The notes under the pieces were generated by a model. The model made no database searches. It saw nothing but the letters and a program-made list of their open reading frames with translations, and had not been told where the DNA came from. Below are positions 31,261 through 34,845 of a stretch of 64,000 nt of DNA, piece after piece. The translations under genes and the position numbers were made by a program. Location of the stretch: NCBI RefSeq assembly GCF_000687995.1, contig NZ_JIAC01000001.1, forward strand, positions 310,001-374,000, in the 5' to 3' direction. Source of the DNA: Selenomonas ruminantium AC2024 (GTDB lineage Bacteria; Bacillota; Negativicutes; Selenomonadales; Selenomonadaceae). The stretch's first letter is position 1. Every line of letters starts with the position of its first letter.

Positions 31261-31318
31261 TTTGTAAAAATCATATATAATGAAAGAAAAGTATTTTTAT
31301 CGGAAAGGAACCGCCTCT

Positions 31319-31969
31319 ATGAAACTCCAATACATTCTCGACCATATGCCTGCCGACATCAAACGACAGACCACCCATAAAGTCTACCTGCCCGGCGAGT
31401 CCATTGTCCGCAAGGGCGAGGAAGCGAAGCATGTCTACCTGCTGACCAAGGGCGAAACCCGGGTCAGCAACGAATTTGCCAGCGGGCAGCGCTATACCTT
31501 CGGCTCCCTTGATGTGCCCGATTTGATTGGCGATTTGGAGGTACTCGCCGGCCAGCAGCTTTACGCCGCCTCCAACGAAGCCAGCTCCACCTGCGAAGTC
31601 ATCGCCATGCGGGCCGAAACCTTTCTGCAGTGGATGCGCATTGACAACGACTTCGCCGTAGCTGTCGCTCAGCTCTTGGCCGCCAAGATGTACCCAACCT
31701 CCAACGAAGCAGGCCGCGTAAAATTCCTGCCCAGCCTTGACCGCCTCCATGGCTATCTCTTAAAACGCCTCGGCGATATTGAAACCGACCTCTTCATCCT
31801 CCACACCAGCCGCCAGCAGATTGCCGACGACATCGGCACCAGCGTAAAAACTGTCAACCGCGGCGTGGTCAAACTAAAAGAAGCAGGGCTTATCTCCCTG
31901 CTTCACGGAAAGATTACCATTAACAAAGAGCAGCAGCAGATGCTGAAAGAAACATTTACAGAAGAGTAA
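31319..31969 (+). CDS. Crp/Fnr-family transcriptional regulator
   Basis: The 216-residue protein has an N-terminal cyclic-nucleotide-type beta-roll (about 15-125; VYLPGESIVRKGEEAKHVYL) and a C-terminal winged helix (about 150-210; HTSRQQIADDIGTSVKTVNR). No cysteine cluster is seen, so an FNR iron-sulphur sensor is unlikely. It resembles Crp-like regulators of the YeiL type. Start at 31319 is chosen for AAAGGAA 8 nt upstream. Its targets are unknown. A hairpin element begins 18 bp after its stop. Confidence 0.85.
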   Translation: MKLQYILDHMPADIKRQTTHKVYLPGESIVRKGEEAKHVYLLTKGETRVSNEFASGQRYTFGSLDVPDLIGDLEVLAGQQLYAASNEASSTCEVIAMRAETFLQWMRIDNDFAVAVAQLLAAKMYPTSNEAGRVKFLPSLDRLHGYLLKRLGDIETDLFILHTSRQQIADDIGTSVKTVNRGVVKLKEAGLISLLHGKITINKEQQQMLKETFTEE

Positions 31970-31987
31970 AAGTTAAGTTCTATGCCT

Positions 31988-32067
31988 GAAAGCCCTTGAT
32001 GACTTATTCCTGCGCTAGTACACGCTTCGCGTGTAAATCGCTTAGGAACAAGTCATCAAGGGCTTTC
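31988..32067. repeat. hairpin element copy 1 (core-conserved family)
   Basis: A perfect 17-bp outer stem, GAAAGCCCTTGATGACT (31988-32004) with AGTCATCAAGGGCTTTC (32051-32067), encloses the shared core TTCCTGCGCTAGTAC ... GTAAATCGCTTAGGAA with apical ACACGC-ttc-GCGTGT. Outer stems differ between copies but stay paired, so the structure is conserved rather than the sequence. It ends 14 bp before the -35 box of the toxin module at 32210. Confidence 0.9.
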
Positions 32068-32080
32068 ATTGATAATTGAC

Positions 32081-32108
32081 TTGTCAAAAACATTAAATCT
32101 GATATACT
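32081..32108 (+). promoter_or_regulatory. promoter of small toxin H1
   Basis: TTGTCA and TATACT with 16-bp spacing. The -35 box lies inside the palindrome TTGACTTGTCAA. The same promoter is repeated at 32526-32553. Confidence 0.75.
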
Positions 32109-32209
32109 ATATCTAGCGCACATCCTGTGTGCTGGCCACCATAACGGTAGGCGGCGTATTTTCCTCGCAGAAAGGGTCGTAATCCCTTAGAGAAAGCGGG
32201 GTCATAATG

Positions 32210-32275
32210 GTGAGTGATATGTCATTTCAGCTTTTAATGCTGTTGCTTATTATCATCGTTCTGAAAAAGAAATAA
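32210..32275 (+). CDS. TxpA/BsrG-like small hydrophobic type I toxin H1 (21 aa)
   Basis: A minute ORF: short polar start (VSDMS), a membrane segment FQLLMLLLIIIVL and the basic end KKK. GTG at 32210 aligns with the TTG start of the downstream paralogue and lies 8 nt after a GCGGGG site; ATG at 32207 is an alternative. Its mRNA has a 5' hairpin, a second hairpin before the ribosome site, and a 5' segment (32134-32155) complementary to the 3' end (32349-32365). An antisense promoter faces it at 32382-32410. This layout is that of TxpA/BsrG-type toxins. Function not tested. Confidence 0.65.
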   Translation: MSDMSFQLLMLLLIIIVLKKK

Positions 32276-32376
32276 CCGCCTGAGCTCCTACACTTGACGG
32301 TTATTCGCAACTTATATGCCGATATTAACCAACGAGCTGGGAAAGCACGCCGTCTATCGGTGGTCTTTTTTATCTG
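32268..32376 (-). ncRNA. putative antisense antitoxin RNA of toxin H1
   Basis: A minus-strand promoter TTGCCT-N17-TAGACT (32405-32410 and 32382-32387) would start an RNA near 32376. It ends at the hairpin AATAACCGTC/GGCGGTTATT (complement of 32271-32305) followed by TCTTTTTC. It would be about 110 nt long and complementary to the toxin mRNA 3' end. Confidence 0.55.
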
Positions 32377-32432
32377 TCTTTAGTCTAGCACAGTTGACCG
32401 GAAAAGGCAAATGAAAAGTTCTTGCCATCGCT

Positions 32433-32512
32433 GAAAGCCCATGGTGGCTTATTCCTGCGCTAGTACACGCTGCGCGTGTAAATCGCTTAGGAACCAGTCA
32501 CCATGGGCTTTC
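32433..32512. repeat. hairpin element copy 2 (core-conserved family)
   Basis: The outer stem GAAAGCCCATGGTGGCT (32433-32449) pairs with AGTCACCATGGGCTTTC (32496-32512) with one G-T wobble. The core is almost identical to copy 1, with apical ACACGC-tgc-GCGTGT. The outer stem differs from copy 1 at several paired positions. It ends 14 bp before the next toxin promoter. Confidence 0.9.
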
Positions 32513-32525
32513 ATAGTTAATTGAC

Positions 32526-32553
32526 TTGTCAAAAACATTAAATCTGATATACT
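32526..32553 (+). promoter_or_regulatory. promoter of small toxin H2
   Basis: TTGTCA and TATACT with 16-bp spacing, in a block of about 45 bp identical to the H1 promoter region. Confidence 0.75.
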
Positions 32554-32655
32554 ATATCTAGCGCACAACATGTGCGCCGACCACCATAACGGTAGGCGGC
32601 TTGTTTCCCTCGCACAGAAAGGTCGAAATACCTTACAGAAAGCGAGGTCATAGTT

Positions 32656-32721
32656 TTGAGTGACGCAACTATGCAGCTTTTGCTGATTTTGTTGATTATT
32701 CTTGCCATGAAACAGAAATAA
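32656..32721 (+). CDS. TxpA/BsrG-like small hydrophobic type I toxin H2 (21 aa)
   Basis: Tandem paralogue of H1. The start is TTG, 8 nt after GCGAGG. The peptide has a polar start (MSDAT), a membrane segment MQLLLILLIILAM and the end KQK. The 5' hairpin GCGCAC-aaca-TGTGCGC and the pre-ribosome-site hairpin AAGGT/ACCTT are both kept by compensating changes relative to H1. The 5' segment GACCACC...GTAGGCGGCT is complementary to AGCCGTCTATCGGTGGTC at the 3' end. Hairpin, promoter and ORF repeat as one unit of about 445 bp. Confidence 0.65.
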   Translation: MSDATMQLLLILLIILAMKQK

Positions 32722-32822
32722 CCGCCCCAGTGTCCTAAGCTCTGGCGGTTACTTCTAAAGTTTTGAAGTTACTAACCATCGAGTGCGGGAACTAGCCGTC
32801 TATCGGTGGTCTTTTTTATCTG
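32716..32822 (-). ncRNA. putative antisense antitoxin RNA of toxin H2
   Basis: The promoter TTGCAT-N17-TAAACT (32851-32856 and 32828-32833, minus strand) would drive an RNA of about 105 nt. It ends at the TAACCGCC/GGCGGTTA hairpin (32719-32751) and TTTCTGTTTC. It overlaps the 3' part of the H2 mRNA. Confidence 0.55.
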
Positions 32823-32889
32823 CCTTTAGTTTAGCATAAGGCAGGGTAAAATGCAAGAAAAAGACCTGCCCTGCATTTTCCAAACAAAA

Positions 32890-32992
32890 ACGTAGGGAGT
32901 TTTGTAGCATATACGTACAAAACTCCCCTGCTTTAAGTGTAGTGACAAACTACAGTGTCCTAATTTTAAGTGCGGGTGACCCGCGTGTTTAT
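32890..32992 (-). ncRNA. candidate structured small RNA
   Basis: A good minus-strand promoter, TTGACA-N17-TAATAT (33022-33027 and 32999-33004), is followed by three hairpins: GCGGGT-CACCCGC, a GTAGT/ACTAC stem, and the terminator GGGAGTTTTGTA/TACAAAACTCCC with TTTTTG. The product would be about 100 nt. No known RNA family is recognised. Confidence 0.5.
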
Positions 32993-33051
32993 GGGTTAAT
33001 ATTACATCATTACCTAATTGTTGTCAATAGTTTTAAGATACAACTCCCGAA

Positions 33052-33111
33052 TTACAGATTTGATGTACGCTTTTTCAATTCATCCTTGTTCGTAATATCT
33101 TTTAAGTCCAT
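33052..33111 (-). CDS. Possible 19-residue small ORF upstream of the RNA candidate
   Basis: The ORF (MDLKDITNKDELKKRTSNL) is hydrophilic and has a strong ribosome site (AGGAGAGG, 6 nt before ATG). A promoter TTGCAC-N18-TAAAAT lies at 33143-33172. It could be a leader peptide, a truncated gene start or an expressed microprotein. It shares a transcription direction and probably a terminator with the small RNA at 32890-32992. I recognise no family. Confidence 0.4.
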   Translation of the reverse strand: MDLKDITNKDELKKRTSNL

Positions 33112-33175
33112 TCTTGGCCTCTCCTCTAATGTGTTTAGAATTATTTTATCATAAATACATAGAGAAGTGCAAGAA

Positions 33176-33203
33176 AAAGACCTCCACCGAAGTGGAGGTC
33201 TTT
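33176..33203 (-). terminator. ompM-like gene terminator
   Basis: The arms AAAGACCTCCAC and GTGGAGGTCTTT enclose a CGAA tetraloop and are followed by a T-rich tract on the minus strand. Confidence 0.9.
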
Positions 33204-33234
33204 GTTAGTTGCGTATAATCTGCTAATCGTTAGA

Positions 33235-34530
33235 TTAGAACAGGAATTCAACACGGCCGAACAGCGTGTTGTATTTCTGGTTGTCAGAAATGCGCTTGCC
33301 AGTGCCGTACTGAACCTGGGTAACGATGTTCTTCCAGGGAACATACTTAACACCGAGTTCGAGGCCCTTGAAACCACTTTTTACAACATCATAAGTCGGA
33401 TCAAGAGCTACCATCGTACCGAGGTAACGGTAACCAACCCATGCACCCCAAGTGCCCTTGTTGGCAGCTTCAGCGCCCTTGTAGGATACGCCATAAGCGA
33501 AAGCAGTCTTTTCGTTGGTCACAGGAACACCTGCAACTTCGCTGAAGTTAGAACGAGCGTAAGTAGCATCAATAGCAAAGTTCTTATCGAATCTGTAACC
33601 AGCACCGATAGACCAAATGCCATCAGAATCGCGACCATTAAGAGCATTTAAGCCAGTAAGGGTACCCCAGTCATCAAACTTGAAGTGCTGATAGCCAGCG
33701 CGAGCGCTCAGCTTGCTAGCATCATAGTTCAGACCAATGCCCCAATAAGTGGAAGTGCTGCCGAAGTTGATGTTATCACGTTCACGACCGAAGTTTACAG
33801 TAGCCTTCAGGTCTTTGCCGCCAAATACTACGCCGATACCAGAGAACGGATCATCAAATACGAGGTCGTTAGCAATGGTGTTAGCGAACTTACCAGCTTT
33901 AACCGTGAAGTTCTTGTAGTCACCCTGAGCCCAGATGCGCTTCAGTTCAACTTTGCTGCTGTCATTACGAGTAGCTGCATTAGTATTTAAATCGTCAGAA
34001 GCATCCCACTCAGCATCGAGACGTGCATTTACATGCCAGTTTTCATTTACTTCAGCGCTGGGTTCGAGACGGAACAGGAATTTGTGCGTGTTGGTGTCGC
34101 GATCTTCCGTGGCAGTGCGAGCCGGTTCACCTTCATAGTGATTACGAGTGAAGGTGTACTCAGCCTTGCCATTCCATTTCACCATGTCAGCGTTGCGTTC
34201 GAGCTTAGCTACGCGAACACCGAGGTTGTTGAGTTCTTCAGCGAATTCAGCAGCCAGTTTGTCAACCAGAGCTTTGTCAGCGCCGGAAGTGTTCTTAGCC
34301 ATAGCTTTAGCTACCATCTGAGCCATTTCGTAACGGGTGATGTTACGGTTGCCCTTGAAGGTGCTGTCGCCATAGCCTTCGATAACGCCATCAGCAGCGA
34401 GCTGGCTTACAGCGTCATAAGCCCAATGATCAGCAGGAACATCGGAGAACGGATTTGCAGCAGCAAAAGTCGTGCTAGCTGCACCAACAACCAGAGCGGT
34501 CGTCAGAGCGGATACGAGAGTCTTCTTCAT
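33235..34530 (-). CDS. OmpM/Mep45-type outer-membrane porin with SLH domain
   Basis: The 431-residue protein has a signal peptide (MKKTLVSALTTALVVGAAST). One SLH domain follows (about 26-80: FSDVPADHWAYDAVSQLA, GDSTFKGNRNITRYEMAQM), then a short coiled linker (EFAEELNNLGVRVAKLE) and a beta-barrel with alternating strands ending in Phe (RVEFLF), the usual BAM signal. In Negativicutes the SLH domain binds polyamine-modified peptidoglycan and tethers the outer membrane. The start at 34530 has GAAGGAGGAG upstream. Codon use is that of a highly expressed gene. Confidence 0.9.
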   Translation of the reverse strand: MKKTLVSALTTALVVGAASTTFAAANPFSDVPADHWAYDAVSQLAADGVIEGYGDSTFKGNRNITRYEMAQMVAKAMAKNTSGADKALVDKLAAEFAEELNNLGVRVAKLERNADMVKWNGKAEYTFTRNHYEGEPARTATEDRDTNTHKFLFRLEPSAEVNENWHVNARLDAEWDASDDLNTNAATRNDSSKVELKRIWAQGDYKNFTVKAGKFANTIANDLVFDDPFSGIGVVFGGKDLKATVNFGRERDNINFGSTSTYWGIGLNYDASKLSARAGYQHFKFDDWGTLTGLNALNGRDSDGIWSIGAGYRFDKNFAIDATYARSNFSEVAGVPVTNEKTAFAYGVSYKGAEAANKGTWGAWVGYRYLGTMVALDPTYDVVKSGFKGLELGVKYVPWKNIVTQVQYGTGKRISDNQKYNTLFGRVEFLF

Positions 34531-34766
34531 GAGAAACTCCTCCTTCTGTAAAATAGAATTAATATTCGTTCTGAAGGCGGAATAGAAGACTTTGCGAGTG
34601 TCCATGTTTCCTCAGCAATTTTCCATTCGTTTTTCAGAACCTAAGTTATCTTAACATAATATAAAACGATTTGCAATAGGAAACTAATTAAATTTCGATT
34701 AAATTTCCATTAAAAATTCAGAATCAAGACAATACTTTGTGAGCGTTGCTAGATAAGTTCGCGACC

Positions 34767-34845
34767 GAAAAGCCCGTGGCAGTATATTCCTGCGCTAGTA
34801 CGCGCAAGCGCGTAAATCGCTTAGGAATACACCGCCACGGGCTTT
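34767..34845. repeat. hairpin element copy 3 (core-conserved family)
   Basis: GAAAAGCCCGTGGC (34767-34780) pairs with GCCACGGGCTTTTC (34832-34845). The core TTCCTGCGCTAGTAC ... GTAAATCGCTTAGGAA is identical to copies 1 and 2, and the apical stem has changed compensatorily to ACGCGC/GCGCGT. It lies between divergent genes, downstream of no gene, and about 30 bp before the promoter of the toxin at 34961. Confidence 0.9.

Follow-up and report, generated by a model that had tools for sequence, protein, structure and literature searches.

Between a porin gene (33235-34605, minus strand) and a crp-like regulator gene (31280-31969, plus strand) of Selenomonas ruminantium AC2024 lies a flagged segment with promoters, hairpins and a short ORF of its own. 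What does this segment encode, and does it have anything to do with its neighbours? We analyzed it within the window, the whole 64-kb stretch of DNA considered here (bases 310001-374000 of the 2.83-Mb single-contig genome). The names porin and crp-like regulator are our assumption, taken from the look of the proteins; the porin is 78% identical to that of a Selenomonas ruminantium MAG (L005), the nearest named relative found. We tentatively favour the answer that the segment encodes a free-standing RNA of about 107 nt, which would act in trans as a second antitoxin for T2, one of two adjoining toxin-antitoxin-like units, and not for the other, T1.

The segment, its doubled junction and the predicted small RNA

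The features of the segment are as follows.

32852-32867, plus strand: left copy of the 16-bp direct repeat TGCAAGAAAAAGACCT, overlapping the -35 box of the T2 antisense promoter
33168-33183, plus strand: right copy of the 16-bp direct repeat TGCAAGAAAAAGACCT, in the porin terminator junction, as in relatives
32868-33183, no strand: extra 316-bp segment (insert plus one repeat copy), absent from four related junctions
33143-33172, minus strand: weak upstream promoter-like site TTGCAC-N18-TAAAAT (TTGCAC 33172-33167, TAAAAT 33148-33143), from the sequence
33052-33111, minus strand: 19-aa ORF MDLKDITNKDELKKRTSNL with its stop codon, from the sequence, function putative
32999-33027, minus strand: small-RNA promoter TTGACA-N17-TAATAT (TTGACA 33027-33022, TAATAT 33004-32999), from the sequence and the promoter scan
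32885-32991, minus strand: predicted small RNA of about 107 nt, from promoter and fold, starting about 7 nt past the -10 box and ending in the terminator U-run
32895-32928, minus strand: terminator hairpin core of the small RNA, with the U-run at about 32890-32882, from fold and sequence

The original prediction had noticed that a 16-bp direct repeat bounds the segment and had proposed an insertion. The repeat is real, and its origin, which had been missed, is visible when the junction is compared among six related units (L086, L087, L088, L089, L090 and L106). In four of them (L086 and L106 from one genome, L087 and L090), which come from three other species, the antisense promoter is joined straight to a porin-type terminator via TGCAAGAAAAGACCTCC and the 316-bp segment is missing; L088 and L089 are not in a porin-terminator setting. 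The window carries two copies of the junction at a distance of 316 bp, and these enclose the flagged segment. Since the TGCAAGAAAAGACCTCC junction is single in the relatives and doubled in the window, the direct repeat is the doubled porin-terminator/antisense-promoter junction. With four related junctions lacking the segment, the proposal of an insertion is borne out: the simplest reading of the aligned junctions is a lineage-specific insertion, which looks recent, while loss of the segment in the relatives is the formally possible alternative.

The original prediction had also looked to conservation of the hairpins in relatives; this is not supported, so that one half of its own refuting condition applies. 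Nine of the 21 other genus genomes have only short, weak matches to the segment (E up to 1), five of the 188 other family genomes have further short ones (E 0.0009-0.005; the one in L066 was inspected), and the 60 porin loci (L005-L064) gave no match at E 0.01. Eleven match loci in genus genomes were inspected and set aside, being mainly DELKK-like coding stretches, promoter-like AT-rich DNA and other chance matches. The one match among 99 other relatives, 27 nt long (L004), is promoter DNA before another gene. An origin from a mobile element or phage was likewise rejected: the segment has no match in phages, two exact-pattern scans of viral contigs also returned none, and three plasmid matches (E 0.3-0.9) were dismissed as weak.

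Both minus-strand promoters, with the 19-aa ORF between them, are present as predicted; they are unequal in strength. The TTGACA/TAATAT promoter is good, matching ten of the 12 consensus positions. The upstream TTGCAC box is poor (three of six consensus matches), and the TTGCAC-N18-TAAAAT site is not among the promoter-scan results for 32000-33400, a region where eight promoter-like sites (overlapping alternatives counted) compare with 3.3 ± 1.8 in shuffles.

For the predicted small RNA the computed folding energy is -34.1 kcal/mol, whereas 200 shuffles average -20.2 ± 3.1 (z -4.44, 0/200). Its first 54 nt, taken without the terminator, reach a z of only -1.75 (12 of 200 shuffles as stable), so the stability of the fold comes mostly from the terminator. 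Three hairpins including the terminator had been proposed. The first hairpin (32972-32984) and the terminator occur in the minimum-energy fold and the centroid alike; the middle one (32938-32954) appears in the centroid only, the minimum-energy fold pairing this stretch otherwise. The T-run of the terminator begins a few bases past the stem, and the terminator is absent from the pattern-scan list, in which loops are limited to 8. The compact unit of promoter, hairpins and terminator, about 107 nt long, is thus supported, and these features make a real transcript plausible. At the gathering threshold, Rfam finds only seven tRNAs across the 64-kb window and none of them at the segment, in agreement with the earlier remark that it fits no known RNA family; sub-threshold Rfam matches in the region (e.g. 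mir-3047) were rejected as hairpin resemblance.

The tandem units T1 and T2 and their family

The original prediction had missed the tandem units T1 and T2 that adjoin the segment, as well as the matches of the small RNA to the antisense RNA of T2. The features of the two units are listed below.

32526-32553, plus strand: T2 mRNA promoter TTGTCA-N16-TATACT, with TG before the second box (promoter scan)
32560-32818, plus strand: toxin-like mRNA of T2 with a terminator and a 5'-3' main helix, ends approximate (scan, alignment, fold)
32656-32721, plus strand: T2 toxin-like ORF with TTG start, 21 aa, hydrophobic with a basic C-terminus (sequence, alignment)
32728-32738, plus strand: T2 mRNA recognition loop CAGUGUCCUAA, predicted target of the small RNA (genome pattern search, accessibility scan, shuffles)
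32782-32789, plus strand: second complementary stretch AGUGCGGG of the T2 mRNA, in the 3' strand of the main helix (run comparison, fold)
32705-32856, minus strand: predicted T2 cis antisense RNA gene (sequence, conserved 3' module)
32081-32372, plus strand: T1 unit, with promoter at 32081-32108 and toxin-like mRNA at about 32115-32372 (own-genome search, scan, covariance model)
32207-32275, plus strand: T1 toxin-like ORF, 22 aa, hydrophobic, ending in KKK (alignment)
32260-32410, minus strand: predicted T1 cis antisense RNA gene, promoter TTGCCT-N17-TAGACT at 32410-32382 (sequence, conserved 3' module)

T1 and T2 show 79% identity over 334 nt in an own-genome search with the intergenic region. 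Each comprises, on the plus strand, a promoter, a 5' UTR and a hydrophobic ORF of 21-22 aa with a basic end, followed by a hairpin that starts from the stop codon, a terminator and then a promoter on the opposite strand. For T2 this antisense promoter is TTGCAT-N17-TAAACT at 32856-32828; the RNA predicted from about 32820 has a terminator-type hairpin that overlaps the toxin stop codon. Opposite-strand promoter and terminator-type hairpin are conserved along with the 3' module of the T units.

We compared these features with those expected of type I toxin-antitoxin systems. The peptides are far below 60 aa and carry a charged C-terminus (22 and 21 aa, ending in KKK and KQK), and the mRNA is closed, as a predicted structure, by 5'-3' pairing (28 pairs in two helices), with 8 of the 28 pairs changed on both sides. 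Folding nine units to a consensus gives a long 5'-3' helix, and of the 44 pairs in the structure 9 are changed on both sides, compared with 0-3 in slid controls and 5.1 ± 1.5 in column shuffles (4 of 500 reach the observed number); the fold was derived from the same nine sequences, so its paired-cell percentage is no independent evidence. T1 and T2 look like type I toxin-antitoxin units with an architecture resembling that of bsrG/SR4, and their peptides would be toxic by this likeness. An imperfect inverted repeat, about 80-90 nt long, lies before each unit (31985-32075 and 32431-32520). Eight matches to it are listed in the own genome, two of which are the query itself on either strand; among the others are one at 34785-34845 of the window and, elsewhere in the genome, ones near 194, 704 and 707 kb, and from this distribution we read it as a dispersed hairpin element.

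The surrounding type I toxin-antitoxin-like family is the firmest result of the analysis. A DNA search found matches in 20 of 100 genomes, the own genome included. Outside the own genome it gave 30 places, and for 15 of these we made an alignment together with T1 and T2. From 13 of the 15 related units a similar hydrophobic peptide was obtained; L096 and L106 gave none. With a covariance model built from 13 sequences of the 3' module, 61 of the 189 family genomes yield matches at E 0.001, many of which score about 40 bits and may be ordinary terminators; at 60 bits or more, 38 matches are left in 21 of the 189 genomes (stricter filters; the model-building sequences are counted). At the gathering threshold Rfam has no match to the units, only sub-threshold matches in the region, and Pfam has none to the T peptides, a search that is insensitive at 21-22 aa. 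Annotation based on Rfam and Pfam therefore likely misses the family.

The literature on type I toxin-antitoxin systems in Selenomonas, Negativicutes, Selenomonadaceae and Veillonella, taken from a collection with few subscription papers, yielded nothing on the topic, and that on small RNAs of Selenomonas ruminantium nothing on topic by title. The one mention of a "second antitoxin" concerned a type II system. As far as this literature search reached, the T-unit family of Selenomonadaceae was not found described.

Several units lie directly downstream of porin genes, and the link between porin loci and the family may be more than chance. L058, which covers the same units as L086 and L106, holds two toxin-antitoxin-like units, each directly downstream of a porin gene. 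Further, L093, L095, L107, L108 and L113 form a subfamily in which the 5' UTR is longer, the peptides, about 22-26 aa in length, start with GTG, and the surroundings of the ribosome-binding site differ. The T2 peptide (32656-32721) is letter-identical to that of L086 save for its TTG instead of ATG start, whereas the loops after the stop codon differ; thus the loops seem to change faster than the peptides.

Complementarity between the small RNA and T2

Two stretches of the small RNA recur in the antisense RNA of T2.

32953-32963, minus strand: module 1, UUAGGACACUG, same sequence as the terminator loop of the T2 antisense RNA; complement of the T2 mRNA loop
32969-32976, minus strand: module 2, CCCGCACU, same sequence as part of the T2 antisense RNA; complement of a stretch in the 3' strand of the T2 main helix

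Modules 1 (11 nt) and 2 (8 nt) stand in the same order in the small RNA and in the T2 antisense RNA, with CCCGCACU upstream. The complementary stretches are separated by 43 nt in the T2 mRNA and by 5 nt in the small RNA. The T1 antisense RNA, by comparison, has no common run of 6 or more with the small RNA. The 11-mer CAGTGTCCTAA occurs exactly twice in the 2.83-Mb genome, on the same strand, in the T2 loop and in the small-RNA gene. A reversed control 11-mer also occurs twice, so it is not the count but the positions that are unusual.

We then weighed the pairing by accessibility, scanning both strands of the 64 kb for complementary runs of at least 7 and excluding sites on the RNA's own complement. 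Among the 9687 runs, the T2 loop ranks first at -9.2 kcal/mol, followed by sites at -9.0, -8.4 and -8.0. Module 2 alone ranks 425; it is buried in both RNAs, each of which would need about 7 kcal/mol to expose it. Only two of 600 shuffled RNAs bind T2 as well as the real one, while 547 of 600 bind T1 as well or better; by these predictions T1 is not a target of the small RNA. Whole-length duplex energy is equalled in 4 of 500 cases after shuffling of the RNA and in 7 of 500 after shuffling of the target, but since 17 of 508 windows equal or outdo T2, this measure is not discriminating despite the shuffle result.

T1 and T2 have different recognition loops, as do most of the units, and a match to the loop is therefore nearly unit-specific. 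Among the other loops listed, a second 10-nt copy was found only for L009 and L036; these copies lie at a distance of 2.3-2.9 kb and do not convince, so an extra RNA of this kind is seen with no other unit. Separately, an 8-nt stretch of the small RNA (32935-32942, minus strand) is identical to part of the T1 mRNA loop (32288-32295). Being complementary to the T1 antisense RNA, it may reflect chance or titration of the T1 antitoxin.

The pairing could nevertheless be fortuitous, the small RNA being an unrelated orphan with other targets or none and a chance similarity to the T2 antisense RNA. We consider this unlikely, though it has to be taken seriously. The segment is not conserved in genus or family genomes, and no relative found carries the small RNA, which also speaks against a second antitoxin. 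The next sites of the accessibility scan are close to that of T2, and the 11-nt match to the T2 antisense RNA is, on its own, reached by 44 of 23107 background tiles with the toxin-antitoxin units masked and by 13 of the 3914 tiles of low GC. Moreover, T2 was picked for comparison once the sequence was known, which makes each single figure look stronger than it is, that of the undirected scan least so. However, the 11-nt match together with a collinear run of at least 7 occurs in just three of the 23107 tiles (one of the 3914 low-GC tiles), the T2 loop tops a scan that was not directed at it, the shuffled RNAs rarely equal the binding to T2, and the two matches coincide with the two types of contact site important in bsrG/SR4, according to the accessible part of PMC6562991.

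A functionless remnant, either a decayed third unit or recombination debris copied from the T2 antisense strand, is improbable. The tandem duplication of T1 and T2 and the junction repeat at the borders of the insert together indicate that the site recombines. Yet the 3'-module model (R1) finds only T1 and T2 in the window at E <0.01; the conserved parts of a unit are thus absent from the segment, and a simple third decayed unit was rejected on this ground. Decay should spare conserved parts, whereas here it is pieces of the variable loop that persist, and the promoter and terminator of the small RNA look intact.

It is very unlikely that the segment is a small-protein gene or leader, in which the 19-aa ORF is read from the upstream promoter and the hairpins serve as 3' UTR or attenuator. 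The ORF does have a good ribosome-binding site, AGGAGAGG at 33125-33118, 6 nt ahead of its ATG. However, 80 of 2000 shuffles of the segment give an ORF of at least 19 aa behind such a site, so it is merely mildly unusual, and no relative of it was found at E 0.1 in the 188 other family genomes; with the weak -35 box in addition, the ORF is weakly supported as a real gene. As for a leader, the next elements in the same direction are the predicted T2 and T1 antisense RNAs and not a protein gene. Finally, enterobacterial small RNAs target outer-membrane protein mRNAs and the small-RNA gene adjoins the porin gene, but a porin-regulating RNA was dismissed as the least credible explanation, as there is no good pairing near the porin start (best around it: rank 330 of 9687, -2.4 kcal/mol).

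Known antitoxins and the proposed role of the small RNA

In the bsrG/SR4 system of Bacillus subtilis, as given in the available part of PMC6562991, the terminator loop of the antitoxin first touches a loop of the toxin mRNA, and the second contact is between another loop and the 3' part of the main helix. SR4 reduced to its terminator stem-loop and the 3' arm of the preceding one retains binding (PMC6562991, same part). The two stretches of the small RNA match these first two SR4/bsrG contacts, to the extent that the excerpt of PMC6562991 describes them. T1 and T2 themselves resemble bsrG/SR4, bsrE/SR5 and txpA/RatA, as these appear in partial sources, in having a short hydrophobic peptide, a predicted antisense RNA over the 3' part of the mRNA, a long main helix and an antitoxin terminator loop opposite an mRNA loop. 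Unlike the Bacillus systems, the peptides have 21-22 aa and no Pfam or Rfam match is found. The small RNA in turn differs from SR4-type antitoxins, going by the same partial sources, in that its gene stands apart and its complementarity is 19 nt, divided into two stretches, versus 100-140 bp.

Antitoxins encoded apart from their toxins offer a second comparison. For dinQ/agrAB of Escherichia coli, the accessible portion of PMC3567139 gives a complementarity of 30 of 31 nt for agrB, with small RNAs in the same intergenic region as the toxin, opposite to it and of limited complementarity, much as here. Unlike AgrB, our small RNA has its complementarity split into 11 + 8 nt, and unlike dinQ, for which that portion of PMC3567139 describes none, T2 has a predicted, fully complementary 3'-end antisense RNA. 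In zorO/orzO and zorP/orzP of E. coli O157:H7, tandem toxins have antitoxins encoded apart with 18-19 nt of complementarity, as far as the available text of PMC3919570 goes; T1 and T2 are similarly tandem toxin-like copies with a small RNA encoded apart. The pairing is predicted in the 3' part of the T2 mRNA, whereas OrzO pairs with the 5' UTR (PMC3919570, same text), and, in contrast to zorO/orzO as presented in the partial source, T1 and T2 each also have their own predicted cis antisense RNA. By its sequence features, the small RNA is, like trans-acting antitoxins, a separate gene near the toxin with its own promoter and terminator; it lacks their complementarity of about 18-31 nt in one stretch. 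Since its split 11 + 8 nt fall short of AgrB and OrzO, we liken its proposed action to theirs without classing it with them.

The proposed mechanism builds on what can be read off the DNA directly, namely the modules and their order, the match to T2 and not T1, the toxin-antitoxin-like architecture and the empty junctions. Once transcribed, the small RNA would contact, through its accessible UUAGGACACUG, the loop of the hairpin just past the T2 stop codon. In the main 5'-3' helix of the T2 mRNA, the 3' strand would next pair with the upstream CCCGCACU, and the resulting duplex, if formed in the cell, would lower the translation or stability of T2.

A second antitoxin looks redundant, because a fully complementary cis antisense RNA is already predicted for T2. 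The two stretches match in T2 the kinds of contact site used by bsrG/SR4, which suggests a reduced antitoxin acting in trans. Possibly, and we say this with more reserve than for the antitoxin role as such, the newly inserted RNA is a minimal second antitoxin that keeps the two essential contacts and provides private extra control of one toxin duplicate. If true, the untouched cis copy and the untargeted sister toxin would form an internal control, and the locus would be a snapshot of trans-acting antitoxins arising from cis antisense ones.
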